A stretch of DNA of 41,522 nt from Hymenobacteraceae bacterium (GTDB lineage Bacteria > Bacteroidota > Bacteroidia > Cytophagales > Flexibacteraceae): NCBI GenBank assembly GCA_947459175.1, contig CANHCT010000010.1:1-41522 (forward strand). The letters run 5' to 3'. Shown here piece by piece: positions 4,866 to 39,200 of this stretch; position 1 is the first letter of the stretch, and each line of letters opens with the position of its first letter. Under the pieces are notes generated by a model that was not told the origin of the DNA, made no database searches, and saw only the letters and a list, made by a program, of their open reading frames with translations. The position numbers and the translations under genes were made by a program.

Positions 4866-5659
4866 GCGAAACCGCAAACAAGGAGGTTCCTACCTCGAGA
4901 TTAAAAAAAGTATCTTCAATTCTGGTCACCCAACCGAAACCTTCAGATGAAGATTCTCCCTATTTTGCCTTGGCAAAAAAGTACAAAATCAAAATTGATT
5001 TTCGCCCTTTTATAGAGGTACAAGGGATTTCGCTGAAAGATTTCAGAAAGCAAAAAATTAACATTCTGGATCACAATGCAGTAATCTTTACCAGTAAAAA
5101 TGCGGTGGACAACTTCTTCCGTATCGCAGGCGAGCTGAAGCTGGATATTCCCATCGATATGAAATATTTTTGTGTTACAGAATCTACAGCCAACTACCTC
5201 CAGAAATACATTCAAATCCGGAAGAGGAAAGTTTTTGTAGGTCAGAAAAATGCCATGGATCTCGTTGATCAGGTAAAAAAGCACAAAGAGGATTCTTATC
5301 TTTTTCCCTGTTCGGATATCCGCATCGGAGATTTCCCTGACTATCTCAGAAAAAATAATTACAAATTTACTGAGGCAACTTTCTACAATACCGTGTCCAG
5401 CGATTTGTCAGATTTGAAAAACATCAAATACGATATTCTTGCTTTTTTCAGTCCCTCCGGTATTGAATCACTGTTTCATAACTTTCCTGATTTTCAGCAA
5501 AATGAGACCAGAATCGCTGCCTTCGGACCCACCACAGCCAAGTCGGTAAAAGACGCCAATCTCATCCTCGACATTCAGGCTCCATTACCAAATATTCCAT
5601 CTATGACCGGTGCCCTTGAGGAATATATCAAAGCGTGTATTAAGGCATCTAAAGAATAA
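4862..5659 (+). CDS. hemD: Uroporphyrinogen-III synthase
   Basis: The product has 265 residues and starts at the ATG that overlaps the DUF4271 stop (ATGA). HemD closes and inverts ring D of hydroxymethylbilane to give uroporphyrinogen III in heme and siroheme synthesis, in the cytoplasm. The two-domain fold is suggested by ILVTQPKP near the N terminus, AVIFTSKNAVDNFF at about residues 78-91, ESTANYL in the second domain, and the late block DILAFFSPSGIESLF with AAFGPTTAKSV. HemD is weakly conserved in sequence, but this combination is typical. No other heme gene is next to it; the neighbours are DUF4271 and porP. Confidence 0.85.
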   Translation: MSETANKEVPTSRLKKVSSILVTQPKPSDEDSPYFALAKKYKIKIDFRPFIEVQGISLKDFRKQKINILDHNAVIFTSKNAVDNFFRIAGELKLDIPIDMKYFCVTESTANYLQKYIQIRKRKVFVGQKNAMDLVDQVKKHKEDSYLFPCSDIRIGDFPDYLRKNNYKFTEATFYNTVSSDLSDLKNIKYDILAFFSPSGIESLFHNFPDFQQNETRIAAFGPTTAKSVKDANLILDIQAPLPNIPSMTGALEEYIKACIKASKE

Positions 5660-5720
5660 AATTTTTTCAATTTGTAATTTTCCCATAAACTTGGGCCCTA
5701 TTTTCGATTGCAACCAGATT

Positions 5721-6686
5721 ATGAACAAGAAGATTTTCCTCGCCGTGTTTTTTTCGGCCATAGCTGCGTCCTCTAAACTTATCGCTCAGCAGGATCCACA
5801 TTTTACGCAGTACATGTTTAACCAGCTGTATTTTAATCCTGCAGCTGCAGGTATTGAGCAGGGGTTCCGCGGCGGGCTCCTTTACAGGCATCAATGGGTA
5901 GGTTATCAGAACTCATTTGGTTCCGGTGGTGAACCCAGAAATATCTTATTTACAGGCTCATTACCAATTCTTTCAGCCAATTCAGGAGTTGGTCTTGTTC
6001 TTAATTCGGATCAGATTGGACCCTACCAGGATATTCAGGCCTCTGTGAACGGAGCTTATCAATTCAAACTCGGTGCAGGTAAACTCGCAGCTGGCTTGCG
6101 TTTGGGTGTACATTCGCGCTCTATCAATGGCAATGCCCTCAAAGTATTTGATGAATCTGATCCTGAATACCTTGCCCTTAAAAGTGCCAGTGGTCAGATG
6201 GTTCCGGATTTTGGATTTGGACTCCACTATACATCCGAGAAATTTTTTGCAGGACTCAGTTCCACCCATCTTTTTGAGCCCAAATTTGATTTTTCAGGCC
6301 CTTCATCTGTTACTAAAAATACATTGAACCGTCACTATTATTTCCTTGGCGGGTACAACTTTGATCTTTCTCCCGAAATTGTTCTGACTCCAAGCGTGAA
6401 CATGAAATATGATTCCAAAGTTTTTCAGTGGGAAGCATCTGCATTGGCCAAAATTAATAACCAATTTCTTGTTGGACTTGCATACCGCGAACAGGATGCA
6501 GTGTCTGTCCTTGCCGGGCTTACTTTATTGGATAATAAATTCAGGTTAACCTATTCCCTGGATTACACTGTGCCCGCTACAGAAGCAAAAAGGCCTACAT
6601 CGCACGAGATAATGGTTTCCTATTTTCATCCGATTGCAATGAGAGGACCTAAGCCAATTATCCGGACCCCACGCTACAGAAAATAA
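5721..6686 (+). CDS. porP: Type IX secretion system membrane protein PorP/SprF
   Basis: The product has 321 residues. The ATG at 5721 begins a clear signal peptide (MNKKIFLAVFFSAIAASS, cleaved near LIAQQ). The mature start QQDPHFTQYMFNQLYFNPA is the family hallmark, and the rest is predicted as an outer membrane beta barrel. PorP/SprF proteins act with the T9SS, and some serve as partners of type B sorting-domain cargo at the cell surface. The gene lies 125 bases upstream of gldK, the order known from other Bacteroidota (porP-K-L-M-N), which supports a role as the core-linked member. The last residues are RTPRYRK, unlike the cysteine-containing tail of the second homologue at 22152-23171. Confidence 0.92.
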   Translation: MNKKIFLAVFFSAIAASSKLIAQQDPHFTQYMFNQLYFNPAAAGIEQGFRGGLLYRHQWVGYQNSFGSGGEPRNILFTGSLPILSANSGVGLVLNSDQIGPYQDIQASVNGAYQFKLGAGKLAAGLRLGVHSRSINGNALKVFDESDPEYLALKSASGQMVPDFGFGLHYTSEKFFAGLSSTHLFEPKFDFSGPSSVTKNTLNRHYYFLGGYNFDLSPEIVLTPSVNMKYDSKVFQWEASALAKINNQFLVGLAYREQDAVSVLAGLTLLDNKFRLTYSLDYTVPATEAKRPTSHEIMVSYFHPIAMRGPKPIIRTPRYRK

Positions 6687-6763: not shown

Positions 6764-6811
6764 TGTATCTAAATAATCAAACGATTAATTCGTTTTTGTT
6801 TTAAGGTGTTT

Positions 6812-7864
6812 ATGAATATATTGAAAACTGCATGGACTATGAGTCCGGTGCTCGCCATTTCAGGATTGGTTTTACTAAATTCCTGCGGATTGGGGCAGAA
6901 GGACATTCAAGGGGAATTGATTGGAGTTCCCAATCGAGACGGTTGGGTGCAAACGGTTCCCTTCGGGATGACAACTGTTCCCTCCGGAACGTTCCACATG
7001 GGACAATCCGATGAAGATGTGGCCGCCTCCCACATCAACTACAACAAACAGGTTACCATTGGTGGATTTTATATGGATGATACCGAAATCACCAACAATG
7101 AATATCGGCAGTTTGTTGAGGCCATCCAAACAGATGATACGGTTGGACTGGGTACACTGAGCGAAGAATTTCAGAAAATGTTGGCCGAGCGGAAATACTA
7201 TCCCGATACTACTGTATGGGTCAGGGATTTCTCTCATCACATGGGTGACCCCATGATGGAATACTACTGGATTCACCCGGCCTTCGATAACTATCCTTTG
7301 GTCGGAGTTACCTGGAAAGCAGCCAAGCTGTTTTGCAAGTGGCGGACAGGCTACCTGAACAAAGCCCGCACGGATGCCGGTCTGCCAATAATGCCCAATT
7401 TTCGTTTGCCATCAGAAGCAGAATGGGAATATGCAGCCAGAGGTGGAAGGGATCTTGCCCCGTATCCATGGGGAGGGCCTTATGTGAGAAACATGAAAGG
7501 CTGTATGCTGGCCAATTTCAAGCCGGGAAGGGGTAATTATTATGATGACGGATTCTCGTATACATCTCCTATCGGACAGTATTTCTCCAATGATTATGGT
7601 CTTTATGACATGTCCGGCAATGTGTCCGAGTGGTGTGAGGATGCATTCTTTGAAGCTTCTGTTCCCGTAGTTTGGGACTTAAATCCGACCTATTTTGATG
7701 CTGCAGAGCCCCGTAAAGTGGTTCGCGGCGGATCATGGAAAGATATCAGCTATTATCTTCAAAACGGGACTCGTAATTTCGAGTATGAAGATACCGCAAA
7801 ATCATTCGTTGGTTTCAGGTGTGTGGTGACATATTTAGGTCGTTCAGCCGGCAACGAATTTTAA
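6812..7864 (+). CDS. gldK: GldK/PorK, T9SS outer membrane ring lipoprotein
   Basis: The product has 350 residues. The ATG at 6812 is preferred over a GTG two codons earlier. A lipoprotein signal ends in LLNSC with the lipidated cysteine at position 25. The body is a formylglycine-generating-enzyme-like (FGE-sulfatase) domain: PFGMTTVPSGTFHMG, DDTEITNNEYRQFV, RLPSEAEWEYAARGG, GLYDMSGNVSEWCED and VVRGGSWKD. In GldK this fold is structural, not enzymatic. With GldN it forms the periplasmic ring attached to the outer membrane that works with the GldLM motor in secretion and gliding. It is the first gene of the KLMN set, and gldL follows after 46 bases. Confidence 0.97.
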   Translation: MNILKTAWTMSPVLAISGLVLLNSCGLGQKDIQGELIGVPNRDGWVQTVPFGMTTVPSGTFHMGQSDEDVAASHINYNKQVTIGGFYMDDTEITNNEYRQFVEAIQTDDTVGLGTLSEEFQKMLAERKYYPDTTVWVRDFSHHMGDPMMEYYWIHPAFDNYPLVGVTWKAAKLFCKWRTGYLNKARTDAGLPIMPNFRLPSEAEWEYAARGGRDLAPYPWGGPYVRNMKGCMLANFKPGRGNYYDDGFSYTSPIGQYFSNDYGLYDMSGNVSEWCEDAFFEASVPVVWDLNPTYFDAAEPRKVVRGGSWKDISYYLQNGTRNFEYEDTAKSFVGFRCVVTYLGRSAGNEF

Positions 7865-7910: not shown

Positions 7911-8720
7911 ATGAGCGCAAAAAAAGGTGGTTTTCAGGAGAAGTTTTATGGTAAAATTGCTCCCGTAATTACAGGTGTTGGTGCTTCAGTAGTAATTCTG
8001 GGCGCCCTTTTCAAAATCATGCACTGGAATGGTGCGGGTCCGATGCTTATCTTAGGATTGGGAACAGAAGCCCTTTTGTTCTTGCTTTTCGCTTTTGCAC
8101 CTCAGCCCCATGACCCAGCTTGGGAAAGGGTATATCCGGAACTGGATGATGAAGTATGGGCCAAAATGCAAAAATCCGGTGTAGCCAAGACTGCTCAACC
8201 CGGACCCGGTGCCGGTGGTTTGGACCAAATGCTGGCCGCTGCAAAAATTGACCAGGGCATGATTGACAGATTGGGTAAAGGTTTCTCCGGTCTTGCCGAC
8301 ACTGTATCCAAAATGACAGATATCAGCAATGCAACCGTAGCCACCAAGGAATATGCAGCCAATGTAACTTCCGCTTCCAAGACCTTGACTGAAATGAATA
8401 AGTCTTACGCATCTACAGTAAGTGCAATGTCTGAAATGTCGAATGCCGCCACCGATGCAAAGCAATATCATGCTCAGGTTCAGGCCATAACTAAGAATCT
8501 TGGTTCTTTGAACGCTGTTTATGAAATGGAACTTCAGGATGCCAACAACCACTTGAAGGCCATGAATAAATTTTACAACAATCTTTCGAATGCAATGGCC
8601 AACATGGCCGATGCCAGCAAGGATACCGAAGCTTTCAAAACCGAACTTTCTAAGTTGACAGGTAACCTAACCACTTTGAATAAAGTGTACGGCAACATGT
8701 TGACTGCTATGAAAAGCTGA
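7911..8720 (+). CDS. gldL: GldL/PorL, T9SS inner membrane motor subunit
   Basis: The product has 269 residues. Two transmembrane helices lie at about residues 17-35 and 43-64, with the typical FKIMHWNGAGPMLILGLGTEALLF region. A membrane glutamate at residue 53 corresponds to the conserved acidic residue known to be needed for proton-driven motor action (the GldL pentamer surrounds a GldM dimer). After an acidic patch (PELDDE) the rest is a cytoplasmic helical region that contains three related 38-residue units, listed separately. The long cytoplasmic tail is usual for GldL. It is translated with gldM, 43 bases downstream. Confidence 0.97.
   Translation: MSAKKGGFQEKFYGKIAPVITGVGASVVILGALFKIMHWNGAGPMLILGLGTEALLFLLFAFAPQPHDPAWERVYPELDDEVWAKMQKSGVAKTAQPGPGAGGLDQMLAAAKIDQGMIDRLGKGFSGLADTVSKMTDISNATVATKEYAANVTSASKTLTEMNKSYASTVSAMSEMSNAATDAKQYHAQVQAITKNLGSLNAVYEMELQDANNHLKAMNKFYNNLSNAMANMADASKDTEAFKTELSKLTGNLTTLNKVYGNMLTAMKS
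8322..8717 (+). repeat. Three-unit protein repeat in the GldL cytoplasmic region
   Basis: Residues 138-175, 176-231 and 232-269 of GldL align to one another. Unit 1 starts ISNATVATKEYAANV, unit 2 MSNAATDAKQYHAQV and unit 3 MADASKDTEAFKTEL. Each later has an LTEMNKSY, LKAMNKFY or LTTLNKVY block followed by an SAM or TAM motif. The middle unit carries about 18 extra residues before this block. The repeat is visible at protein level, not as an exact DNA repeat. Confidence 0.65.
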
Positions 8721-8763: not shown

Positions 8764-10371
8764 ATGGCAGGTGGTAAAGAGACCCCGCGGCAAAAACTGA
8801 TTGGTTTGATGTACCTGGTGCTCCTTGCACTCTTGGCGCTACAGGTAAGTTCGGCTATCCTTCAGAAATTTTCGTTCCTCAATTCCAGTCTGGAGCTGGC
8901 AACGAAAAACTCCAATTCTGCAAATGATGCCAAGCTTTCTGCGATCCAGGCGGCAGTAGACAAAGCTCCCAAATACAAGCCGGTTTTGGAAGATGCCGAA
9001 AGGATAAAGAAGATGTCCAGGGAAATGATCGGAGAGATTGACAGCTATAAGCAGGAAATCATCACTAAGACTGGTGGAAAAGATGAAAAAGGGCAGTATG
9101 TCGGAATGAAAGATGAAGACATTACGGCCAATCTGATGGTGGGTGATCCTTCTACCGGAAAGAAAGGAAAAGCTTACGGTCTGAAGGAGCGTCTAAATAA
9201 GTTTATCGACGAGCTCAATAGAGTTGCCGGGACAGGTTTCCCTCCCCTTGCTCAGGATGGTAAAGATGATCCATTGACCAAAAACGATCCCGAGCAGAAG
9301 AACAAAGACTTTGCTGAGTTGAATTTCGGTCATACACCCATGATTGCTGCTTTGGCTGTGCTTTCAGACAAGCAAAGTAAAATTACGGCATACGAGGCCG
9401 AGGTTTTGAATGTGCTTCAAACCAAAGTAGGGGCTAAGGATTTTAAAGTTGGTGGCTTTGAGGCCAGCTACAGCGCTCTCTCTTCTACTGTGGCTGCAGG
9501 TACCGATTACGAAGCCAAAATGTTCCTGTCTGCCAAATTGGATGTAACCCCAACCATGAAATTTCGGGGTAACACCGTTAAGGTCGAAAACGGTGTAGGT
9601 ATCATTAAGTTTAAGGCATCTGCCACCAACTACGATGCTGAAGGCAATGCCAAGCAAAACTGGGAAGGTTCGATTTCTGTAGCCAAACCAACAGGCGATG
9701 GCGACACAACCTTCAAGGTAAAAGGTGAATATATTGTAGCGAAACCTGTAATTGATGTGAAATCCGCTTCTGTTTCAGCGCTCTATTACAATTGTGGAAA
9801 CGATCTCAATGTGCAGGTACCTGCTCTCGGTGCGAACTACAAACCCAGCTTTTCTGCTAAAGGAGCCAACATCATTCCCGGAAAAGAAAAAGGAGCTATT
9901 ATTCTTATTCCAAGTATTAAAGGGCCAGATGCAAAGGTTACCCTTTCGGTCAGCAGCGATGGATCTGCTATTGGTACAAAAGATTTCCCTGTTCGTGGGG
10001 TTCCCCGGCCTTCTATTGTAGCCAAGATTGGTGGCAATTATGTGGATCAGAAAAGAGGAGTTCCTGCTCCCGGCCCTGCATCCATTCAGGTATTGGCCGA
10101 GCCAGATCCTGCTTTTGCGGCTGCTCTTCCAAAGGAGGCGAGGTACAACATTACCGAAGGGGAGGTTACACTCGCCAGAGGAAAACGCGAAATCAATACC
10201 CTGCCTATCAGAACAGACAATGTTAACCTTTCTGCCATCCGGAGCCAGGCTCAGTCGGGAGACAGGATAATTATTGTAATTAAAAAAGCAAGGCGTTTGA
10301 ACTTCAAGGATGATTCTGAGGATGTACCCATCAATGCAGCATCATCTGTGATTACCATACCGATTAACTAA
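8764..10371 (+). CDS. gldM: GldM/PorM, T9SS inner membrane motor subunit
   Basis: The product has 535 residues. The N terminus MAGGKETPRQKLIGLMYLV carries Arg9 just before a single transmembrane helix at about residues 14-32. In studied systems an arginine at this place faces the GldL membrane glutamate. The rest is periplasmic: a helical first domain to about residue 220, then beta-rich domains that reach up to the GldK-GldN ring. Recognisable blocks are LNFGHTPMIAALAVLSDKQ and the late VRGVPRPSIVAKIGG with RARRLNFKDD-like residues (KKARRLNFKDDSEDV). GldM dimers turn inside the GldL pentamer to pass proton-motive force to the outer membrane. It lies 43 bases after gldL and 40 before gldN. 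Confidence 0.97.
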   Translation: MAGGKETPRQKLIGLMYLVLLALLALQVSSAILQKFSFLNSSLELATKNSNSANDAKLSAIQAAVDKAPKYKPVLEDAERIKKMSREMIGEIDSYKQEIITKTGGKDEKGQYVGMKDEDITANLMVGDPSTGKKGKAYGLKERLNKFIDELNRVAGTGFPPLAQDGKDDPLTKNDPEQKNKDFAELNFGHTPMIAALAVLSDKQSKITAYEAEVLNVLQTKVGAKDFKVGGFEASYSALSSTVAAGTDYEAKMFLSAKLDVTPTMKFRGNTVKVENGVGIIKFKASATNYDAEGNAKQNWEGSISVAKPTGDGDTTFKVKGEYIVAKPVIDVKSASVSALYYNCGNDLNVQVPALGANYKPSFSAKGANIIPGKEKGAIILIPSIKGPDAKVTLSVSSDGSAIGTKDFPVRGVPRPSIVAKIGGNYVDQKRGVPAPGPASIQVLAEPDPAFAAALPKEARYNITEGEVTLARGKREINTLPIRTDNVNLSAIRSQAQSGDRIIIVIKKARRLNFKDDSEDVPINAASSVITIPIN

Positions 10372-10411: not shown

Positions 10412-11341
10412 ATGAAAATCAGATTAAGCTTTGTCCTTTTGTTATGCTTACTCGGTGCAGCAAGCATGGCTCAGCAAGGAAAGCGTAAAAAAGGAAAAAA
10501 GAATGTAACGGAAGCCCCTGCTTCGGCCGAACCTGTTGCTGCGGCTCCTCCTGTACCCGAGGCAGTGGTTGATCCCGTTGCCAGGTCGATGGACAGTCTG
10601 AGACGAGAAGATTCGGTTGTATGGGCTTCAGGATACGATCCGCTTTCGGTTCGTAAAGTCCATGTTTCCGATATCATGTACAAAATGCAGGTATGGCGTG
10701 TTCTGGACCTTCGGGAAAAGTGCAACCAGCCTCTTTTTGCCAAGGAAAATCAAATAACCAAGGCCATTGTGGATGAGGTGAATGCAGGCAGACTCATAGC
10801 TTTTGCAAAAGATTCTCTTACCCGGCCATTGTCATTGGCTGAATTTAAGGAGAAAGTAGTGGATCCCAGCAGTATGCAAATGGATGCTGATGGTAATCCC
10901 ATACCCGGCAGCGGCCTTCCTTTTCTTCCTCAGAATCTTTATGTGCTGAAATTCAGGGAAAACCTGCTTTTTGACAAACAAAGATCCAGGTTTTACTATG
11001 ATATTCAGACCGTTACTCTTTTTATTCCTGCTGAGTTCAACACCATCAAAGGTACTGAGACAGAGGTGGCTTCGTTTCGTTACAAAGATTTGGTTCGTGT
11101 TTTCAAGAATATGCCGACCGCCAGGTGGTACAATTTTCAAAACCGGGCTGAGGATAAAAAAGTGGCCGATGCCATGGACCTTCGTCTGTTTTGTTCCCGA
11201 ATTATCAAAATTTCTAATCCCAAGGATGCGATGATCGAAGATATGCCGGAGTACAATACCTCAGACAAAGCCATTCTCATTGCTTCTCAGAAGTACGAGT
11301 ACGACTTGGTAGCCAAAGAAAATGAAGTTTGGGATTATTAG
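10412..11341 (+). CDS. gldN: GldN/PorN, T9SS periplasmic ring protein
   Basis: The product has 309 residues, with a signal peptide (MKIRLSFVLLLCLLGAASMA, then QQ). A low-complexity Lys-rich then Ala/Pro/Val-rich linker follows to about residue 50. The conserved GldN domain follows, starting near VWASGYDPLSVRKVHVSDIMYKMQVWR and including LREKCNQPLF and LYVLKFRENLLFDKQRSRFYYDIQ. GldN partners GldK in the ring under the outer membrane and contacts the GldM C-terminal domains. It is the last gene of the operon, closed by a strong terminator 22 bases after its stop. Confidence 0.96.
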   Translation: MKIRLSFVLLLCLLGAASMAQQGKRKKGKKNVTEAPASAEPVAAAPPVPEAVVDPVARSMDSLRREDSVVWASGYDPLSVRKVHVSDIMYKMQVWRVLDLREKCNQPLFAKENQITKAIVDEVNAGRLIAFAKDSLTRPLSLAEFKEKVVDPSSMQMDADGNPIPGSGLPFLPQNLYVLKFRENLLFDKQRSRFYYDIQTVTLFIPAEFNTIKGTETEVASFRYKDLVRVFKNMPTARWYNFQNRAEDKKVADAMDLRLFCSRIIKISNPKDAMIEDMPEYNTSDKAILIASQKYEYDLVAKENEVWDY

Positions 11342-17525: not shown

Positions 17526-17856
17526 GGGGTCGACTGGTTTTGACAGCGGGTGGTTTGCTTAAATTGCATGCAAGGTTTGTTCTGTTCCTTCAAAAACGGT
17601 TCATCTATACACGGCGAATACAATTACGCCCTGGCTGCCTGATCGGAGATCAGTGAAGCCGGTGTCCGTCTGATGTGTTTCGGTTGTCATCAGAAATCCG
17701 GGCATCGTAACAACCGGAATCAGGCTTCAATCCAGGTAGGGGCTTGATTATTACCTGGAAAACCAAAATGAGTTGCCGGCACTCCAAGTCCGGCTAAGCA
17801 TGTAGACGTTTTTGTGGGCTCTTGTCTGGACGTGGGTTCGAATCCCTCCGACTCCA
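17526..17856 (+). ncRNA. ssrA: Transfer-messenger RNA (tmRNA)
   Basis: tmRNA rescues stalled ribosomes and tags the unfinished protein for proteolysis. The 5' end GGGGTCGACTGGTTTTGACA pairs with the 3' end CGACTCC to form a seven-pair acceptor stem with one G-T pair. The T-arm GGGTTCGAATCCC lies near 17835, and the discriminator is A17856. CCA is not fully encoded (CCC follows). The tag frame at 17613-17642 is present. The total is about 331 bases, with a strong terminator six bases downstream. The one-piece order is intact, not permuted. Confidence 0.95.
17613..17642 (+). other. tmRNA tag-coding frame, (A)GEYNYALAA
   Basis: Codons GGC GAA TAC AAT TAC GCC CTG followed by GCT GCC TGA give GEYNYALAA and stop. 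The first alanine comes from the charged tmRNA itself. The ALAA end is the usual ClpXP signal. Confidence 0.9.
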
Positions 17857-17861
17857 CCCCG

Positions 17862-22151: not shown

Positions 22152-23171
22152 TTAAAACTTGGGACAAGGAATGGGAGTTGCCCGTTTTTTTCTTCGCTTC
22201 GGCGAATCGAATTCGTAGGAAACGGAAACTTCGTGTGACCCTGCAGTACCGGGTCCGAGGCCGGAAATGGTGAGGTCATAACTGTACCCAACGCTGAAAT
22301 TATTGTGTTTGAAACCCAGCAACCAAACCAGGGCGTCCTGATTTAAAATTCCGTTGTAATTGAAAACAGGGAGCCCGCGGTACCAAATTCCGGTTATCAG
22401 CGGCGAAAGCGTGACATAGGCCCCCAAATCCAATTGCTGAAAGTCTCCCTGTCTCTTATAGAGTAGGGAAGGGCTGATGCTTTTTTCCTTGAATCGGTTG
22501 GCACCATAATCGGCTCCATACCTCCGTTTTGTAAGGGGAATTTTTGCTCCTGCCATTAAAGAGACACGCATAGGCAATTTACCTGTATTGCCCAGCAGCG
22601 ACTGGTTGGGTTGGTTCATGTGAAGTGCGCTACCGCCGAACCATAAATACCGGTTGTAAAGCAGAAACCCGGAAGAGATATCGAAATATCCTACTCTGTT
22701 CAAATTGGCCTGAGCCGGGTCGCTGGTGGGTGTAGGTACAAAATTGGCATTGAGCTGGTCTCTGAAGGTGAGTTTTGAGAAATCAACAAATCTGTTCGCG
22801 TACCCGAATGAGAGGCCGCCGCGACCGCTCCATTGAGAGCTGAAATGGATTTCATAAGCATATTGAATAGCTAAGGCATTGGTGCTCAGGCCGCCTGAGC
22901 CCGCCTGATCGCGGTAGGCCAATATGCCGACGCCTGAATTGTAGGCTTTGTAATAATTGTCTGCAGAAAAAGCAGTGGTAATGAACCCCTGGGGAATGGC
23001 CGGCCATTGATTTCTGTAATTGGCTACCAGCCTGCCTTTGTGGGCTGCGCCTGTAAAGGCAGGATTGTGGTACAGGGGAGCAGCATAAAATTGTGAAAAC
23101 TGCGGATCCTGTGCCAGAATTTCAATCTGCACCATCAGGAAAAGGAGAGCAGAAAATTTTAATTTTTTCAT
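22152..23171 (-). CDS. PorP/SprF-family T9SS membrane protein, partner of the adhesin gene
   Basis: The product has 339 residues from the ATG at 23171, chosen because MKKLKFSALLFLMVQIEILAQ is a complete signal peptide; an ATG at 23195 would add eight residues. The mature start QDPQFSQFYAAPLYHNPAFTG is the family mark, the body is a predicted outer membrane barrel, and the tail ends TPIPCPKF, a cysteine-containing end common in SprF-like members. SprF is needed to export the type B cargo SprB in Flavobacterium. This gene directly follows the PKD giant protein with a type B sorting domain, so a cargo-partner relation is likely. Confidence 0.92.
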   Translation of the reverse strand: MKKLKFSALLFLMVQIEILAQDPQFSQFYAAPLYHNPAFTGAAHKGRLVANYRNQWPAIPQGFITTAFSADNYYKAYNSGVGILAYRDQAGSGGLSTNALAIQYAYEIHFSSQWSGRGGLSFGYANRFVDFSKLTFRDQLNANFVPTPTSDPAQANLNRVGYFDISSGFLLYNRYLWFGGSALHMNQPNQSLLGNTGKLPMRVSLMAGAKIPLTKRRYGADYGANRFKEKSISPSLLYKRQGDFQQLDLGAYVTLSPLITGIWYRGLPVFNYNGILNQDALVWLLGFKHNNFSVGYSYDLTISGLGPGTAGSHEVSVSYEFDSPKRRKKRATPIPCPKF

Positions 23172-23197
23172 CGCAATAAGGTTCGAAATGTTCATTT

Positions 23198-26100
23198 TTA
23201 TTTCAGCAGGGTTACATCCCCGATAAAGTTCTGGGTTTCTCCGTTGGTATATTGAGCCTGAATCTGATAGATATAGGTGTCAGCAGGCATCAGCTTTCCA
23301 TTGTAGTAGCCATCCCAGCCGCGGTTTAGTTCCGAGCTGTGGAATATTACCTGGCCCCAGCGGTTGTAAATGGTCATGCGTATTTCTTTCATTCCCTTTG
23401 CAAAGGGATAAAAAACATCGTTATCCCCGTCTCCGCCAACAAAGCCACCATTTGAGCCGTCTGGATTGGGGGTGAATGCATTTGGGGCAGCGAACAGCTG
23501 ATCGGGTCTGGCTATCACCGCCCCGTTTCTGCTGCTGGTAGAATGGCAGCCATTCGGACCGGTAACTTTCAGTGACACATCGTACACCCCGGGTGCAGGA
23601 TATTTATGAACAGGTGTTCGGCTGTTGGAGGAATCTCCATCTCCAAAATACCAGGTGTAGGAAAATTCCGGTCGGTTGTCGTTTGGAAAAAAGTAGGCTG
23701 GCTCATCCAGTGCTACCACGGTTCTGGGAGGTGTGGGATCCACGGTAAAGGAACTGCGGGGTGTTTCGAACACGCGGATGTAATCAATCTTCTCCACGGA
23801 ATCCTGACCGGCCGAACCTTTGATTTTCAGTTTTACAGTTTTTAGTCCGGCGGTTTCAAAAAAGAAGACCGGATTTCTGTCCTTCAGAACCACAGGCGGA
23901 GAGCCTTCCTTGTCCACAAAAGTCCATTCAAAATTTCTGGCATAAGAGGAAGTACTGGTAAGCTGAACCTCCAGAGGCCGGCAACCCTCCCGTGGCGTTG
24001 CCTCAAAACCAGCAATTGGTTTGCCGGGTTTGATTACCATCACCCTTTTCATGGTATCAGCACAGCCCATGCTTCCTTTGGCAATCATAGTGATTACAAA
24101 AGTGGTATCTGTAAAGTCTTCATTACCAAGTGAAAAAGTATGAACAAAATCGCTTACTCCGTTGTCATCCGTCGTGCCATCCCCGAAATTCCAGGAGTAG
24201 GTCCAGTTGGATCTGAACGGGGTGGTGTTTCCAATTGTCACCGAATTCAGCGGCAACTGAATGGTAGAATCGGAGAGGAACCTGAAGTTTGCAGCAGGGG
24301 AGGGGTGAACCCGGAGTTGGATGGTTTTGGTTCTGATACAATTACCTACCGGCCCGCGGGAGGTAAGTGTAACAGAATAGACCTTGTCTGTGAGTGTGTT
24401 GTTAATAAAAACTTTGGTTGGATTCTTTTCTGTTGAAAAGCTTCCGTCTCCAAATTCCCAGCGGTAAGAACCCAGATAATTCTCACTCAAATTTTTGAAT
24501 CTCACCACATGCGGGGTACAGCCGGCGGTATCCATTTCAAATTCTGCAGTCAGATTGGGATATACCTGAACCGTTTTGGTGGCTTTGGCAATACAACCCA
24601 GGCCGGAAACCACATTTTGCTCAATCACGAGGGTCTTTGTTGCGAAATTCGGATTTTCGATAAGGCTATCTGCTGTTCCGGAAACTCCCGGGAAAATGGT
24701 GTCTGAAATCCCTCCGGAACTGATAACCCAATAACTGGTCAAACCATTAGAGCCTGTATCTGAAAGAACAAGGGGCAGGGGTCCGCACCCGGCCAGTGTA
24801 CTGGTGCTGAATCCGGTTTGGGGCGAAGGATAAACAGTAATCGTGGTATAGGCAGTATCCGGACAAAAGTTGGTTTGTGTTTTTTGGGCAATCAGCCTTA
24901 CCCGGAAGGTCCGGATGGAATCTGAAGTATTGATAAAGAGGGCATTCGGACTTGCCTGCGTGCTTTCAGGGTTCCCGTTTCCGAAATTCCAGACATACGC
25001 ATTGGCATTTACGGAATTGAGGGCGGTAAACTGGGCGGTAAAGGGTGAGCAGCCACTGGTTTGAATCAGGGAAATAACAGCTTTAGTGAAGGGCTTCACC
25101 ACAATGGTTTTTATGGTGGTATCTCTGCAGCCCTCCTCAGAAATCGAAATTCGTTTTACCCTGTGGATCCGATTGCTTACGGGATGAGAATTATACAGCG
25201 TGCGGTTCAGGGATTGGCTGGTAAGGGTGGTGTCTGTACCGTCATTGAAATCCCAGAAATAAGAAACTGCATTCTGCACATTGCCCGAAAACTGAACATT
25301 AAGCGGGCTGCATCCCTCTGTTGGATTGGCAGTCAGGGTGTTGGCCCTTGGTTTTGGAAACACCTTCACAGTTTTTGTCATGGTGTCCACACAATTGAAA
25401 CCCTGATTATTTTTTACTGCAAGGCGGATGGTGTAGGTGGTATCGCCCAGGTTGTTGTTGAAAAAAGTATGTACAATCTGGCTTTGCTGGTTTCCGAGCT
25501 GAACCCCATTGACCATCCAGCGGCGGATGTTGGAGGCCATGGTGGAGCTATCGGAAAGGGTGACCCGCAAAGGGGTGCAGCCCGAATCTACCGACATGGA
25601 AAATCTTGCCCTTACCAAGGGATTGATGTTGAAGGTATTGGCTTTTGTGATGCTGCATCCCGAAGGAGAGGTAGCCCGTACGGTTACGGTATTCGGATAA
25701 GGTGCGGCGGTTTCATTCTCATACACCTTGTTGATGGTATCTGTCATCTGGGTCAAGAGAGTATCACCATTGCCGAAATCCCAGCGGTAGCCAGCTGCAT
25801 TTTGGGTCGCCAGATACCAGAATTTTGCCAGCAGCGGTCCGCAGGTGGCATCCTGCCGCGTAGAAACCTGAAAGTTAAAATCAGGATTTGGATTTACCTT
25901 AAGGGTTTTGGCCACATTCAGCGAACAACCCGACTGAGATTTTACCAACAGCGAAACCTGAAAGAAAGCAGGGGAGCCGGTGAGGTTATTGAATACTTTG
26001 GAGAAGGTTGGCTCGGTATAGGTGGTGCCATCGTAGTCGCTGAATTTCCATTGGTAACTCACAGCCCCGGTTGTTGTGGCCAACATCATAATGGAGTTGC

Positions 26101-28654
26101 CTGAGCAAATGCTGTCGGGAATGTTGATTTCAGCTTTTGGCAGGGGATAGGTCACAATGATTTTTTCGGTGCAGTAGCTGCAACCATTCGTGGTTTGAAG
26201 GCAGAGCCGGATGGTATCCCTTCTGTTCAGGTTACTGGTGTTAAGAAAAGTTGCCGGAGGCGGATTCTGACCTTGAAAAGTCCCGGCCTGTCCCAGGTTC
26301 CATGAATACAATACAGTTCCTGTGGAGGAAATATTTTTTGAAGTATTGAGAATGCTCACATTCGACAAGGGGCTGCAGCCATCCATAGGAGTCATTTCAA
26401 AGTCCGGGATGGGAGTCGGGCCAACCCTGACCAAAACTGGTGAAGACTGAATGACACAGGAATCATTTCCGTTGATGGTAACAGCCGTAAGCACAATGGA
26501 ATAGGTAGTGGTATCTCCCGGTGGGGTGTAGGGCAGGAATAGAGGCTGATCCTGTGTATCGGTTCGGGAAAAGGAGGCAAATTCGAGGCCCGGTGTTACC
26601 GAAGTGCCTTGGTAAATCCTGTAAATGAACCGGTTGGCACTTTCTATTGTATTGTTTTTCAATATAAGGTTGGAATTGTTACAGGCCACAGATTGAATTG
26701 AAAACCTGGGTCTTGCGCTTGGTTTTACCACAACCTGAATGCTGTCAGAAACCTGGCAGCCTCCCTTTCCTGTTACCATCAGTTTTACCCAATGGGTTCC
26801 CGGTATATGGAAGGCAACTCTGGTAAGTCTACCGGTTGGGCCCGTTGAATCGAAGTTGGCAGAAAGTGGTGTTACAGAACTTAATGTGGTATCGTTTCCA
26901 ATCTTCAGTGTCCAGGAGATGTGGTTGAAGTCGGACCCAAGCCCTTTGGCATCGGTTTCCATCACCCTGGAGCTGTCCCTGATTTCAAACAACTCACCCC
27001 TGCAAAAATTGGTTTTGTTTACCCTCCAGCGAAGCAGGGGTTTGGGGTAAATTTTTATGGTATCGCCTCCGGTATTTTCATCACATCCCGGGCTTTGAGC
27101 CTTCAGATTCAGGGCATAAAGACCGTAAGTCAAAAACCGGACAGTGGCCGATGAATCTGCCGGATTAGAATTAATTATCTGTATCCTGGTCGGATCGGAA
27201 CTGGCGGGTCCGGGATAGTGATTCATGCCGGCAGTTACAGCAGGATTGCCGCCCAATGTCCATCCTTTCCAATCAGCATTGGCCGGAAAAAGGGAGGTAT
27301 TTTTAATTACTGCTGTCAGGTTTCCGCATCCGGAGTCGGAAGGTGTTATTTTTATTCGGGGAACGACCGCATCCTTGATAAAAACATTCATCGTGGTTTC
27401 CCGAATGCAGGTTTGGGTGCCGAATCCACGGGTAATAACCCTCAATCTTACGGTAAAATTTCCTCCTATGCTGTAAGCATGAAACGGGTTAGGGAGATTA
27501 GATGAGTCTGTGGATCCGTCACCAAAATCCCACCTGTAGGAATTTAACCTGTGCGGGTTGGGCGTGGTATTTACAAACTGCACCGGAGTTCCTACACATG
27601 CACCAAGATTTACAATATTGAATGACGGCGTTGCCGGATTTACCAATACTACAGTCATTTCTGCCGTGTCTTCCCCGCATTTATTCCGGATTTGCATCCT
27701 GAGTTTGAAGGTCCCTTCCGGTGGTACCACTGCAAACATAGATGCAGGTATGGTAATTCTTTGATTCCCGACCGGGCCTCTTGGGCGCCAGATTCCATTG
27801 CCCGGATTGGGAAGGGGATTGTTGAAGCCATCCAAGGCAGTCCATTTGATTTGCCTCCTTACTGTATCCCGGCAATTCATTACAGATACATCGCGGATGG
27901 TAACATCCGTTGGGGCGCATATAAACAAAGTATCAAAATTCAGCTTGGCAGAATCCTTTTCCATAAATCGGAAAGGACCAAATGTGGTACTCAAAGCCTG
28001 GCCGCAGGGAACAATGTTGCATGTATTGCGATAAGAAACTGAAATCAGCGGATTGCATAGTTTCTCCCCGGCTTTGTACTTGTGGGTAAAATACTTGTCG
28101 TAGCTCGGATAGTCTGCAGTATCTCTTCTTTGATCTCCCCAGTTAATAATCCACTCTGTAAATCCGTTCATTCCCGGAGATAAGTTTCTGATTATGATTG
28201 AATCCGGAAGACATCTCGAAGAGTCATTGGGTGGTGCAATCCAACCCACTCCGGGGCAGGTGGTATTGTAGTCGTTTACAAAAATTCCCCTGATGGGTTC
28301 GGCACAACCCGCCTGAGTGATGACATAATTATATATCCCGGTAGTTTTATACACGCGGGTGGCGGTAGTAATGGGACCGGGATAATTGGCTGTGGTATCC
28401 CCCCAATTGATGGTAACATTGGAAACAGGGGACTGGAATGTAATGGTGAATGGCGTAACCGGCGACTGCCCTGCCGCAAGACACCTGAAATCTTTTTTAG
28501 GTTTGAATGTCCAGGTGTTGTTTCTCCTCCTGTCACGGATTCGGATACACTGGGCGTTGGCAGTAAACTCAATGGTTAGTTGGACGATTAACAATCCTGC
28601 CAGCAACCATTTTTGTTTTTGCCCTATCGATAAAGGCTTCAAACAGATTCTCAT
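23198..28654 (-). CDS. Giant PKD-repeat surface protein with T9SS type B sorting domain (SprB-like)
   Basis: The product has 1818 residues, with a signal peptide ending near ANAQ at residues 31-34. About a dozen or more PKD-like modules follow, recognised by YRWDFGDG, YRWDFGNG, YFWDFNDG, YVWNFGNG, YRWEFGDG, YSWNFGDG and YTWYFGDG. At least eight units begin with a [S/E/A]GC[S/T/G/R]P[LFH] motif. The last 99 residues (about 1720-1818) are the gliding motility-associated type B sorting domain: FTPNPDGSNGGFVGGDGDND, IYNRWGQVIF, WDGYYNGKLMPADTYIYQI and a final VTLLK. It is expected to leave the cell through the T9SS and sit on the surface as an adhesin. The paired cysteines suggest disulfides. The ligand is unknown. 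Confidence 0.94.
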   Translation of the reverse strand: MRICLKPLSIGQKQKWLLAGLLIVQLTIEFTANAQCIRIRDRRRNNTWTFKPKKDFRCLAAGQSPVTPFTITFQSPVSNVTINWGDTTANYPGPITTATRVYKTTGIYNYVITQAGCAEPIRGIFVNDYNTTCPGVGWIAPPNDSSRCLPDSIIIRNLSPGMNGFTEWIINWGDQRRDTADYPSYDKYFTHKYKAGEKLCNPLISVSYRNTCNIVPCGQALSTTFGPFRFMEKDSAKLNFDTLFICAPTDVTIRDVSVMNCRDTVRRQIKWTALDGFNNPLPNPGNGIWRPRGPVGNQRITIPASMFAVVPPEGTFKLRMQIRNKCGEDTAEMTVVLVNPATPSFNIVNLGACVGTPVQFVNTTPNPHRLNSYRWDFGDGSTDSSNLPNPFHAYSIGGNFTVRLRVITRGFGTQTCIRETTMNVFIKDAVVPRIKITPSDSGCGNLTAVIKNTSLFPANADWKGWTLGGNPAVTAGMNHYPGPASSDPTRIQIINSNPADSSATVRFLTYGLYALNLKAQSPGCDENTGGDTIKIYPKPLLRWRVNKTNFCRGELFEIRDSSRVMETDAKGLGSDFNHISWTLKIGNDTTLSSVTPLSANFDSTGPTGRLTRVAFHIPGTHWVKLMVTGKGGCQVSDSIQVVVKPSARPRFSIQSVACNNSNLILKNNTIESANRFIYRIYQGTSVTPGLEFASFSRTDTQDQPLFLPYTPPGDTTTYSIVLTAVTINGNDSCVIQSSPVLVRVGPTPIPDFEMTPMDGCSPLSNVSILNTSKNISSTGTVLYSWNLGQAGTFQGQNPPPATFLNTSNLNRRDTIRLCLQTTNGCSYCTEKIIVTYPLPKAEINIPDSICSGNSIMMLATTTGAVSYQWKFSDYDGTTYTEPTFSKVFNNLTGSPAFFQVSLLVKSQSGCSLNVAKTLKVNPNPDFNFQVSTRQDATCGPLLAKFWYLATQNAAGYRWDFGNGDTLLTQMTDTINKVYENETAAPYPNTVTVRATSPSGCSITKANTFNINPLVRARFSMSVDSGCTPLRVTLSDSSTMASNIRRWMVNGVQLGNQQSQIVHTFFNNNLGDTTYTIRLAVKNNQGFNCVDTMTKTVKVFPKPRANTLTANPTEGCSPLNVQFSGNVQNAVSYFWDFNDGTDTTLTSQSLNRTLYNSHPVSNRIHRVKRISISEEGCRDTTIKTIVVKPFTKAVISLIQTSGCSPFTAQFTALNSVNANAYVWNFGNGNPESTQASPNALFINTSDSIRTFRVRLIAQKTQTNFCPDTAYTTITVYPSPQTGFSTSTLAGCGPLPLVLSDTGSNGLTSYWVISSGGISDTIFPGVSGTADSLIENPNFATKTLVIEQNVVSGLGCIAKATKTVQVYPNLTAEFEMDTAGCTPHVVRFKNLSENYLGSYRWEFGDGSFSTEKNPTKVFINNTLTDKVYSVTLTSRGPVGNCIRTKTIQLRVHPSPAANFRFLSDSTIQLPLNSVTIGNTTPFRSNWTYSWNFGDGTTDDNGVSDFVHTFSLGNEDFTDTTFVITMIAKGSMGCADTMKRVMVIKPGKPIAGFEATPREGCRPLEVQLTSTSSYARNFEWTFVDKEGSPPVVLKDRNPVFFFETAGLKTVKLKIKGSAGQDSVEKIDYIRVFETPRSSFTVDPTPPRTVVALDEPAYFFPNDNRPEFSYTWYFGDGDSSNSRTPVHKYPAPGVYDVSLKVTGPNGCHSTSSRNGAVIARPDQLFAAPNAFTPNPDGSNGGFVGGDGDNDVFYPFAKGMKEIRMTIYNRWGQVIFHSSELNRGWDGYYNGKLMPADTYIYQIQAQYTNGETQNFIGDVTLLK

Positions 28655-36235: not shown

Positions 36236-39200
36236 CTACTGCTTGATGAGTTTCAGCCGTGCTCTTTGATTTGGGTTTTCGATCGTAATGAAATACAAAC
36301 CCGGAGGTAAAAATCCAATGTCTTTTCTGGTTTCGGTGCCTTCCCAATCCCAGGAGGCCACTTTTTTACCTTCGGCATTGTACACAGAAACTTGTGATTG
36401 TGCATTCATGCCCAGCAATTTCAATTCGGATACAGCCGGATTTTCGGCAATCACCAATGGATTGACCCGGTTGCCGTTCCTGATTTGGGCAAAGGTCTGA
36501 AAGCTTGGCTCACTGCTTCCGATGTCGAATTGCCTGAGCCTGTAAATCAGATTGTCGCCATTGCAGGCAGGTGGGGTGTGGAGAACACTGTATAATTTGC
36601 CGCCTTGGCTATGGCCCTTTGCTGCTTCTGTATGAAACACAGTGAAATTTTTTCGATCGCAGGAAAAGGCAAGATCGAATCGGTTGGCCAGGATTTCTGA
36701 TGTGGTCTCCCATTCCAAAGTCACAGGGGCTTTTTCATTTTCCTGCTGTGCACCGAAGAAAACCAAATGCACAGGGAGTGTAAGAGAATCCTGAGTACCC
36801 GGTTTTCGGCTGCTGATGTAAAATTCAGAGAAAAAACTGACCGAAAATTCAAGAAAATAGCCGTCTGCCGTGGGCACCTTCAGCACATCCCGGGGAAGTA
36901 TAAAATTCGACTGTCCGCCGGCAGAAGGGTTGTTGTCCAAACTCAGGTCAGCGCCGGTTCCGGCATATTGATAAATCCCCAAATCCTGGAAACTGCGAAT
37001 CGAAGAATCTGCAGCCTGCAAGGCTTCCAGTTCGGCAACTTTCAGATAAAGGCGTACTTTGGCTTGAGTAAGTGTCTGATTTTCAGGTGAAATTAAGAAA
37101 TTCCGGCTGAGATATGGAATGTTGTTATGGTATCGGATTCCACCGGCAGCATTTTTCATTTTCAACTCCACAGCGCCCAGGCCGGGGATATCTTCCACCT
37201 CTGCCACCACACCATTCTGATTGCCAAACAAAAGCCAATTGTTCGCTTCAGTCAGCGGCACGGGGCTGAAAAAGCTGCTGTCGGAGCAAATGACCTGACT
37301 TGCTTCAATATGTATGTCATCCAAACCTGCTCCCTCAGCCTGATTGGAAATGTCCGATGAAAATCCGAAACGGAACCTCACCCTGGTTTTATCAGCCAGC
37401 TGGCCAGCATTGATCCCGATGCTATGGACTGTCCAACCTCCTGAAGTTCCGGTCCATTGGTCAGATCCGTGGTTGTACCAATGGGTTCCCTGTCCGGTTT
37501 GGCCCGCTTTATTCCATGTTTTTCCGTCTTCCGAAATCTCAAGCCAGAGATAATCGTAGTCGTTTTCGGTTTTAAAATTTCCGTTAAAGCTGAATCTGAA
37601 TACCCCATCCGATCCGCTCAGATTGAAACAGGGTGACTCCAGATACGCTCTGGAATTTGCAGGATAGTTGCCGGAGATGTTGGTTCCCCAGATGCGCAGT
37701 CCATTGGCAGAAGTATCGATTACTTCCAGATTCGCCTGAGGCTTTCCCCATTCCCATGCATCATTTTGGCCATAACTGTGCCAAAAGCCGTTTCCTTGTT
37801 CAAAAGGTTCGTAATAAGGAAAGGATTGAACCACCGGTGAAAAGAACAGACGTATGTTTCGAAGGGTATCGTTCACCGGATAGACATCATTCTGACTCCT
37901 GACCCAGAACTTAAATTCTTGATTTCCAAACAATCCCACCGGTAGCGGATGGGTAAATTCAAAGTCAAGGGAGTCACCCGCATTGAGAAGGGGAATGATT
38001 TCTTCATCGGTTACGGATGAGGACAGCGAATAGCCCGCCCGGATTTGTTGAAATGCACTGTCAGATGGATTCCAGAGGCGAAGTTTTACTTTTCTTATTT
38101 CATTGGGAGATGTACAGCCGGCAATGGGAGCAATCAGTTTTTTTATGACAACTTCTTTAGGTGGGCGGCTAATCGACAGATTGTCAATGGCATAGCCAAG
38201 GCCGTTCGGAACATCAGAAGGCATTTTTCCCGTGTAGGAAAAGCGGAGCTGAAATGTCTTGCCGGGCAAATGGCTGTTCAGTGCAGCGCTCAAATCCAAT
38301 CCCCGGAATTTTTTCACAGTGCCGGCAACAATATCCGACTGCCAAAGAGGTATCCATTCTGTCCATGCCTGCTCGTCGGAGGCACGAATGCTCAGATGGC
38401 TTCCCTGCGGAATCTCTCCGAAAGAAAACAGGTCGAAATCCAGCGCAAGCTGGTCTGAAGCGTTGTATTGGCTCAGGTTAAAGGTGAAAATGACTTCAGA
38501 ATTCCCGGTTTTTCCGTCGATTTTTTCTTTGTCCAACTTCAGGCATCTGCTTCCGAATGCCGCCGGCATGGCTGAGAAACGGGTCGCCATTCGGCCCCCG
38601 TTCAGCGAATTGAAATCGAGTTCCGGAATAACCGGATGAGAAAACTGAGATAGTTTATAAGATTGTTCGGCAATATTTTCAAAGTTCAGCGTTACCGGTA
38701 GGGCAACCGCCGGATTGGCAACCTGTCTGAAAGTCCTGACCAAAGTATCATTAGATTTATTGGCGTCCTCACCCAAAGCAAACCAGACCCTGACAGAATA
38801 CTGTCCCGGATTGGCGGGAACAAACAAATTGCTCAGGATGATTACCGATGAATCGCCCGGAGAAAGGGAAATACTTCGGTTGGTTTGCTTGATAGTACCA
38901 TTATTCAATTGAATGAAAAATGAAACGGGTTTGTTTTGGAATGCAGTATTCCCTACATTTTTCAATACCAGAGAGGGGGGATTTTGCGTGTTCATCTCCC
39001 GGCTGAATTGCCTTGCATTTTTGGGAGAGTTCAACCGGATTATTCCCAAATCGGATGCCCAGGGACAAGATCCGGAACCTCCGGGAGTCACCATTTTGCC
39101 ATCCGAAATCATGCCCGGATTATTTGAAAACCAAGGCTTTACCGCAAAAGCATACCGGCGGCCGTTTTCCAGTTGGGATACAATTCGGGAGCTCGATGTA

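Follow-up and report, generated by a model that had tools for sequence, protein, structure and literature searches.

The window analysed here is a stretch of 41,522 nucleotides from the genome of a Hymenobacteraceae bacterium (GCA_947459175.1, contig CANHCT010000010.1). Positions 22152-28654 of the window are filled by two minus-strand open reading frames (ORFs). The first one (23198..28654, minus strand) encodes a giant protein of 1,818 aa which, due to its family matches, is assigned to the PKD-repeat type B cargo proteins of the type IX secretion system (T9SS) and is a putative surface adhesin. Its type B C-terminal sorting domain (CTD; residues 1723-1816, 23207..23488, minus strand) matches TIGR04131 with 47.5 bits (cut-off 35), or 50.5 bits when the whole genome was searched, and the protein also matches PF13585 (CHU_C; 43.7 bits, cut-off 27) and PKD domains. 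The giant contains 41 cysteines, and seven motifs of the form GCxP(L/F/H) occur in it at spacings of 87-89 aa or multiples thereof. Judged by eye only, its N-terminus carries a hydrophobic stretch ending in ANAQ.

The second ORF (22152..23195, minus strand) encodes a protein of 347 aa which belongs to the PorP/SprF family (TIGR03519, 234.6 bits, cut-off 90.55; PF11751, 219.3 bits, cut-off 22.3) and is referred to below as the carrier. The two genes meet at ...CTG AAA TAA AA ATG..., with two bases between the stop codon of the giant and the first ATG of the carrier and the end positions of the ORFs 3 apart, exactly as in the preliminary description, which had the 1,818-aa protein end just before an SprF-like gene. 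The ATG at residue 9 (23171) is more likely the true start of the carrier, as both the similarity to TIGR03519 and what appears to be a signal peptide begin at this point; such a start would widen the gap to 26 bases. Scanning the surroundings of the carrier for patterns had a null result, with three terminator-like sites against a mean of 1.9 after shuffling.

In the predicted model (a prediction, not a solved structure; mean pLDDT 87) the carrier forms a 14-strand barrel, past whose final strand residues 329-347 extend as a C-terminal tail (22155..22211, minus strand) ending in RATPIPCPKF. The best Foldseek matches of the model include OmpG, the T9SS translocon entries 6h3i_F and 8gl6_F, and FadL, with a query TM of about 0.5; chain F of both translocon entries is probably PorV. 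A sequence search of the PDB with the carrier alone returned a single irrelevant match (E 0.33) and no solved member of the family, and the PDB search with the carrier alignment A1 returned nothing. The tail contains one cysteine, Cys344 (22164..22166, minus strand), which we propose as the residue docking to GldK. This column is a cysteine in 42 of 42 rows of alignment A1, which is partly selection since the rows were chosen for a tail cysteine. The nearest carriers from the same family (L171 and L067) both have a tail cysteine.

A second PorP/SprF homolog is located at 5610..6686 (plus strand, probable start 5721; TIGR03519, 260.9 bits). Its end lies 120 bases upstream of the gldK/porK lipoprotein gene (6806..7864, plus strand; TIGR03525, 463.5 bits, cut-off 350; PorK in PDB entry 9mzu), which is followed by putative gldL (7911..8720), gldM (8764..10371) and gldN (10412..11341) genes, all on the plus strand and assigned by eye from gene order and sequence. 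In a phmmer alignment Cys233 of this GldK (7502..7504, plus strand) is aligned with PorK Cys356 and corresponds to Cys343 in the GldK of F. johnsoniae; therefore the tail cysteine of the carrier would have a docking partner. The genome also contains a GldJ match of 575 bits.

Two further features of the window may be mentioned. An S8 subtilase of 1,756 aa (36236-41506, minus strand) matches the type A sorting domain model TIGR04183 with 33.1 bits (cut-off 23), and PF18962 with 24.6 bits, under the cut-off of 27; the window therefore carries type A as well as type B cargo. A tmRNA with the tag GEYNYALAA lies at 17526-17858 (plus strand).

The two carriers of the window share 26% identity, and the tail RATPIPCPKF stands against IIRTPRYRK, without a cysteine, in the GldK-linked PorP. 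The preliminary description had named the gldK-adjacent porP as another homolog with another tail, which is correct, and the tail difference is its most useful part.

The genome encodes eight PorP/SprF proteins and 12 type B CTDs above the cut-offs. A CTD gene is located directly upstream of six of the eight carriers; the exceptions are the gldK-linked PorP and one carrier on contig C4. The window had been put forward as a test case for partner specificity. Since there are six cargo/carrier pairs in the genome and specificity has already been tested in F. johnsoniae (PMC12618676), the window is not special in this respect, and the pair adds one ordinary case to the known cargo/carrier scheme. 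In F. johnsoniae, type B CTDs are reported to require their cognate PorP/SprF carrier for secretion, and three unlinked cargos share Fjoh_1677, a carrier that is itself unlinked (PMC12618676). The proposed contrast of a core-linked and a cargo-linked PorP did not turn out to be clean either: the PorP of P. gingivalis itself partners the type B protein PG1035 (PMC9143113), and with a model built here 13 type B CTD genes without a visible adjacent carrier were found in the genome (six of the 13 above the TIGR04131 cut-off; for one of them, L254, the contig ends 432 bases downstream).

Many of these 13 unlinked CTDs (L253-L265) share, as seen by eye, the form PNL(I/V)TxNxDGKND...FNRWGK...GW. It is possible that these proteins are clients of the gldK-linked PorP. 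Like Fjoh_1677, the gldK-linked PorP and the C4 carrier stand without an adjacent cargo gene, and by analogy the two could serve the unlinked CTDs; the carrier at 22152-23195 differs from Fjoh_1677, which adjoins no cargo gene. Assigning the 13 CTDs to a carrier class by their nearest CTDs gave mixed neighbours.

Four carriers of the genome have a tail cysteine, namely PCPKF (window), PCPSF (C4), PCPGL (C88) and VCPDGG (C113), and an OmpA/PorE gene is found beside none of them. The remaining four comprise two with an OmpA-domain gene next downstream, one that includes two fused OmpA domains, and the gldK-linked one. The fused protein (L251, contig C97, 1451-3850, plus strand; 799 aa) directly follows a type B CTD gene and unites carrier and wall anchor within one protein.

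For a wider comparison 193 carrier ORFs among the matches listed were taken from 33 genomes, 21 of the order of the window and 12 of other orders. Seven same-order genomes with matches were left out, and others, G073 and G081 among them, are represented by part of their matches only. Removal of one ORF that runs off the end of its contig leaves 192 carriers; three of lower coverage were also taken out of the count of cysteines per block (189). A CTD gene at most 300 bases upstream of the carrier defined a linked pair, which applies to 109 carriers from 30 genomes.

Within genomes the distances between linked CTDs and the distances between their carriers are correlated (r = 0.706; 295 comparisons in 13 genomes with at least three pairs), while shuffling the partners within genomes gave 0.02 on average and 0.36 at most, and none of 2,000 shuffles reached the observed value. 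Without three Flavobacterium-like genomes r is 0.72, which 0 of 1,000 shuffles reached. Within the family of the window alone the co-divergence is weaker (r = 0.27, 31 comparisons; reached by 8 of 1,000 shuffles). These data, which are the co-evolution analysis that the preliminary description had proposed as a check, support partner specificity in the evolutionary sense. Its claim that the giant and its neighbour form a cargo/carrier pair is thus upheld by the protein families, the gene positions and the co-divergence of linked CTDs and carriers within genomes, and the pairing is well supported by homology, linkage and co-divergence. Another carrier might still mainly handle the giant, for instance the unlinked Cys-tail carrier on C4, which is fairly close (37% identical), and crosstalk between related CTD/carrier pairs has been documented (PMC12618676). 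The CTDs of those cross-talking pairs were, however, 68% identical according to the same source, and the adjacency of the two genes together with the strong co-divergence of linked pairs makes such an assignment very improbable.

In the tree of the 192 carriers, which was built quickly and without the tails and in which several branches are long, the two carriers of the window fall into separate supported clades. The GldK-linked PorP belongs to a clade of 18 rows, 17 of them GldK-linked (SH-aLRT 99). The smallest supported clade around the carrier at 22152 has 44 rows (support 98), namely 35 with a Cys tail, itself included, four GldJ-linked and five others, and none that is GldK-linked or PorE-linked. 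Grouping of the neighbour with the core PorP, which would have spoken against a separate cargo-linked carrier, was thus not observed, and the 26% identity and the separate supported clades rule out that the neighbour is a duplicate of the gldK-linked PorP. The name SprF-like holds as far as the match to the PorP/SprF family is concerned, but not in the strict sense. The carrier has a single tail cysteine and no Cys-X-Cys, and all nine Cys-X-Cys rows, including the SprF rows L078, L084 and L095, lie outside its 44-row clade; we therefore rejected it as SprF proper.

The CTDs point to the same class. The eight nearest of the 108 other carrier-linked CTDs to that of the giant all come from Cys-tail carriers, so the CTD of the giant supports the Cys-tail class of the pair. 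Over the survey, the nearest-neighbour CTDs predict whether the carrier is of the Cys or the PorE class for 66, 70 and 68 of 78 pairs with one, three and five neighbours, respectively, against 45 of 78 for a majority guess; the own genome was excluded in each case, and 28 pairs with neither and three with both features were not counted.

The enrichment of cysteine is confined to the end of the carriers: of 175 unfused carriers, 45% have a cysteine among their final 25 residues, and for the nine 25-aa blocks that precede these the share is 0-4% per block. A tail cysteine was defined as one in the last 13 residues; the last-25-residue criterion scores two GldK-linked carriers by a cysteine inside the last barrel strand. 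PorE was called first by an OmpA model and later by a wider PorE model, both built here.

With the first model, the 192 carriers divide into four with both a tail cysteine and an adjacent or fused PorE, 70 with the cysteine only, 47 with PorE only and 71 with neither; without the genome of the window the numbers are 4, 66, 44 and 70. For the 171 unfused carriers outside the genome of the window, shuffling inside each genome gave an expectation of 14.2 carriers with both features and never fewer than six in 20,000 shuffles. With the wider model the numbers are 6, 68, 49 and 69, that is, 6 of 74 Cys-tail carriers are accompanied by PorE. The endings differ as well. Outside the genome of the window, (S/T)PR plus one to three residues ends 26 of 41 unfused PorE-linked carriers and none of the 70 Cys-tail carriers. 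All 21 GldK-linked tails have PR within the last 12 residues (TPR in 17), and none has a tail cysteine, which is present in four of the four GldJ-linked carriers. The gldJ neighbours of these four have GldJ as their best match, although two of them are slightly under the GldJ cut-off.

These patterns bear on where the carrier of the window would be held. In P. gingivalis PorP is reported to hold the type B protein PG1035 and to bind PorE, which in turn binds peptidoglycan, and it has been postulated that PorE is absent from mobile type B proteins and present for static ones (PMC9143113). On this precedent of a complex of PorP and PorE with a type B protein, the carrier of the window could be static and wall-anchored through a PorE homolog encoded elsewhere, and the six Cys-tail carriers that adjoin PorE under the wider model are in line with it. 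No PorE (OmpA-domain) gene adjacent or fused to the carrier at 22152-23195 was found beside the pair, also with the wider model, whereas three other carriers of the genome have one adjacent or fused and no tail cysteine. In P. gingivalis, the model for this reading, porP and porE are unlinked. The tail of the carrier also does not have the (S/T)PR ending that is frequent among the unfused PorE-linked and missing from the Cys-tail carriers of the other genomes. We regard a static carrier as improbable.

Carriers joined to other modules were also noticed in the survey. Two (L141, 3530-4882, and L239, 3140-4924, both minus strand) carry a fused SPOR domain, which is likewise a module that binds the wall. 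In Flavobacterium-like genomes three carriers (L080, L089 and L097) have about 670-1,230 extra C-terminal residues and an adjoining CTD gene, and a similar long form (L387) is found in Flavobacterium sp. SLB02.

The preferred reading of the carrier tails is that they act as a destination tag, track versus wall, and its main competitor is that the cognate pair is real while the tail type is an inherited clade marker without effect on destination. The tail classes are largely clades: the Cys group takes 17 changes on the tree, where shuffling gave 57.9. When corrected for the tree, the association of the Cys tail with the absence of PorE is marginal (dependent over independent change, p = 0.056 with the IQ-TREE and 0.036 with the FastTree phylogeny), and a test on independent pairs had only eight usable pairs and no power. 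Among 30 further loci from 15 other genomes no association was seen (both 2, Cys only 10, PorE only 2, neither 16); these are 30 of 41 listed matches, taken with flanks of 1.5 kb, from genomes picked in the hope that GldJ would be absent. Pooled with the survey under the wider model, the numbers are 8, 78, 51 and 85. In one genus the tail cysteine differs among apparent orthologs (LTCPQH or LTSPQH), with no PorE visible next door, and this also fits a mere marker. There are, moreover, recurrent exceptions: L127, L415 and L416 end in ICPRL or FCPRL and have a PorE gene directly downstream, a recurring subgroup with both features.

Four observations argue against a mere clade marker. Cys tails recur outside the main clade, for example in L077 and L086 among PorE-linked relatives and in L238, L240, L225 and L144. 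The GldJ- and GldK-linked carriers contrast in their tail cysteine. The Cys-X-Cys form in PorG and in the carriers matches by lineage, as described below. Finally, gliding is reported to require the tail cysteine of SprF (PMC12635249). We therefore consider a marker without function to be rather unlikely, though less so than a static carrier. The marginal tree test, the null result in the 30 loci and the recurrent exceptions mean that the destination tag has to be read as a tendency with exceptions, and at this strength it is probable. Genomes that bear a PorP and lack GldJ would serve as a control; only two were found (G362 and G294), with one carrier each and no tail cysteine, a number too small for the purpose. 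In listings of the open-access literature, and in those parts of papers that were consulted, no paper was found that links the tail type to PorE or to a GldJ or GldK neighbour.

A GldJ match was found in all 33 surveyed genomes, above a GldJ cut-off in 28 and at 289-378 bits in the five below it (G007, G016, G032, G040 and G044). In F. johnsoniae the tail of SprF has a Cys-X-Cys motif, of which Cys326 forms a disulfide with GldK Cys343 and so ties SprB to the moving track; PorG, too, forms its bond with this residue of GldK (PMC12635249). We took the best DUF6089 match of each genome as PorG; 33 genomes had a match and 30 were read. All 30 have a tail cysteine, in 19 of them in a CP setting, which is also found in 67 of 76 Cys-tail carriers. 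The PorG tail of the genome of the window, EIICPFEYQ..., shows this CP cysteine, and in this feature the carrier resembles PorG; PorG differs in being a smaller barrel of another family and a part of the secretion machine rather than a cargo carrier.

A Cys-X-Cys PorG is present in five genomes (G012, G020, G024, G052 and G056). Among the 76 Cys-tail carriers the motif is found in G020, G024, G052 and G056 only, and G012 is without any Cys-tail carrier. As these four genomes belong to one family, they represent few independent events; G028 from the same family has a single cysteine in PorG and carrier alike. The twin cysteines are described as invariant in all close homologs of SprF, and the first one as making bond formation efficient in F. 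johnsoniae (PMC12635249). The carrier at 22152-23195 is without this first cysteine, which speaks against its docking to GldK.

The Flavobacterium sequences allow a calibration. A search with the carrier L078 found 467 relatives, and the best 80 of these 467 all have Cys-X-Cys. The SprF orthologs of Flavobacterium sp. SLB02, F. chilense and F. collinsii have cysteines at 324 and 326, which matches the published SprF numbering. In the SLB02 genome there are eight carriers. Five end in (S/T)PRFF, and downstream of each lies an ORF of 484-495 codons, truncated where the locus ends, which by eye resembles the first part of PorE. Cys-X-Cys without a PorE-like ORF is found in SprF and in one unlinked carrier, and the eighth is a long fused form. 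The unlinked Flavobacterium carriers L079, L088 and L386 have Cys-X-Cys tails, and from their distance of 14-17 kb to porG L079 and L088 would be Fjoh_1677.

The pair is most similar in its layout to SprB and SprF of F. johnsoniae, in which a large repetitive type B cargo is encoded directly upstream of a PorP/SprF-family carrier. Shared are also the missing adjacent PorE gene, the cysteine in the tail of the carrier and the presence of GldJ and of the GldK docking cysteine. In contrast to SprF, the carrier has a single cysteine (PCPKF) instead of Cys-X-Cys and belongs to another clade, and in contrast to SprB the cargo is an 1,818-aa PKD giant. The order of cargo gene and carrier gene is also that of Fjoh_3952/Fjoh_3951, where, unlike in the window, a PorE-like gene (Fjoh_3950) follows and the cargo is static (PMC12618676). 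PG1035/PorP/PorE of P. gingivalis is a likeness that bears on the gldK-linked PorP, as in that species a type B cargo is kept on the cell surface by a carrier of the PorP family; P. gingivalis is described as having one PorP and one type B protein only, unlike the genome of the window (PMC9143113).

We propose that the two genes form a unit in which a surface adhesin, secreted by the type IX system, is encoded together with an outer-membrane carrier dedicated to it. A putative signal peptide would bring the giant into the periplasm, and at the translocon the co-made carrier would collect its type B CTD. The CTD would remain bound to the carrier and so anchor the adhesin at the surface, a step for which the principle is known from F. 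johnsoniae and P. gingivalis. The periplasmic tail of the carrier would then set the destination: the most likely partner of Cys344 is Cys233 of GldK, and a disulfide between the two would hook the adhesin to the moving GldJ/K/N track as described for SprF. By analogy the giant may thus be a mobile adhesin that is docked to the track by this single cysteine. For the GldK-linked PorP, whose tail TPRYRK has no cysteine, the destination of its own, unlinked cargo would be a site of the PorE type that is anchored to the wall. Taken as a whole, a cargo/carrier unit with a tail-set destination and docking to the track via Cys344 and GldK is the account that we favour, with moderate confidence.

An extension to the Bacteroidota as a whole is more tentative and at present somewhat doubtful. 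It would mean that a CPxF-like Cys tail, common to PorG, directs carriers to the GldJ/K/N track by one disulfide and that (S/T)PR(F/Y)F directs them to PorE and the wall, with most lineages using a single cysteine and no twin-cysteine donor. If this reading of the tails is true, a short motif would tell track-pulled from wall-fixed surface proteins of gliding bacteria, and mobile and static surface proteins would be predictable from sequence. The disulfide finding of 2025 would then extend from SprF to many carriers of a large phylum, for which a single cysteine would suffice.
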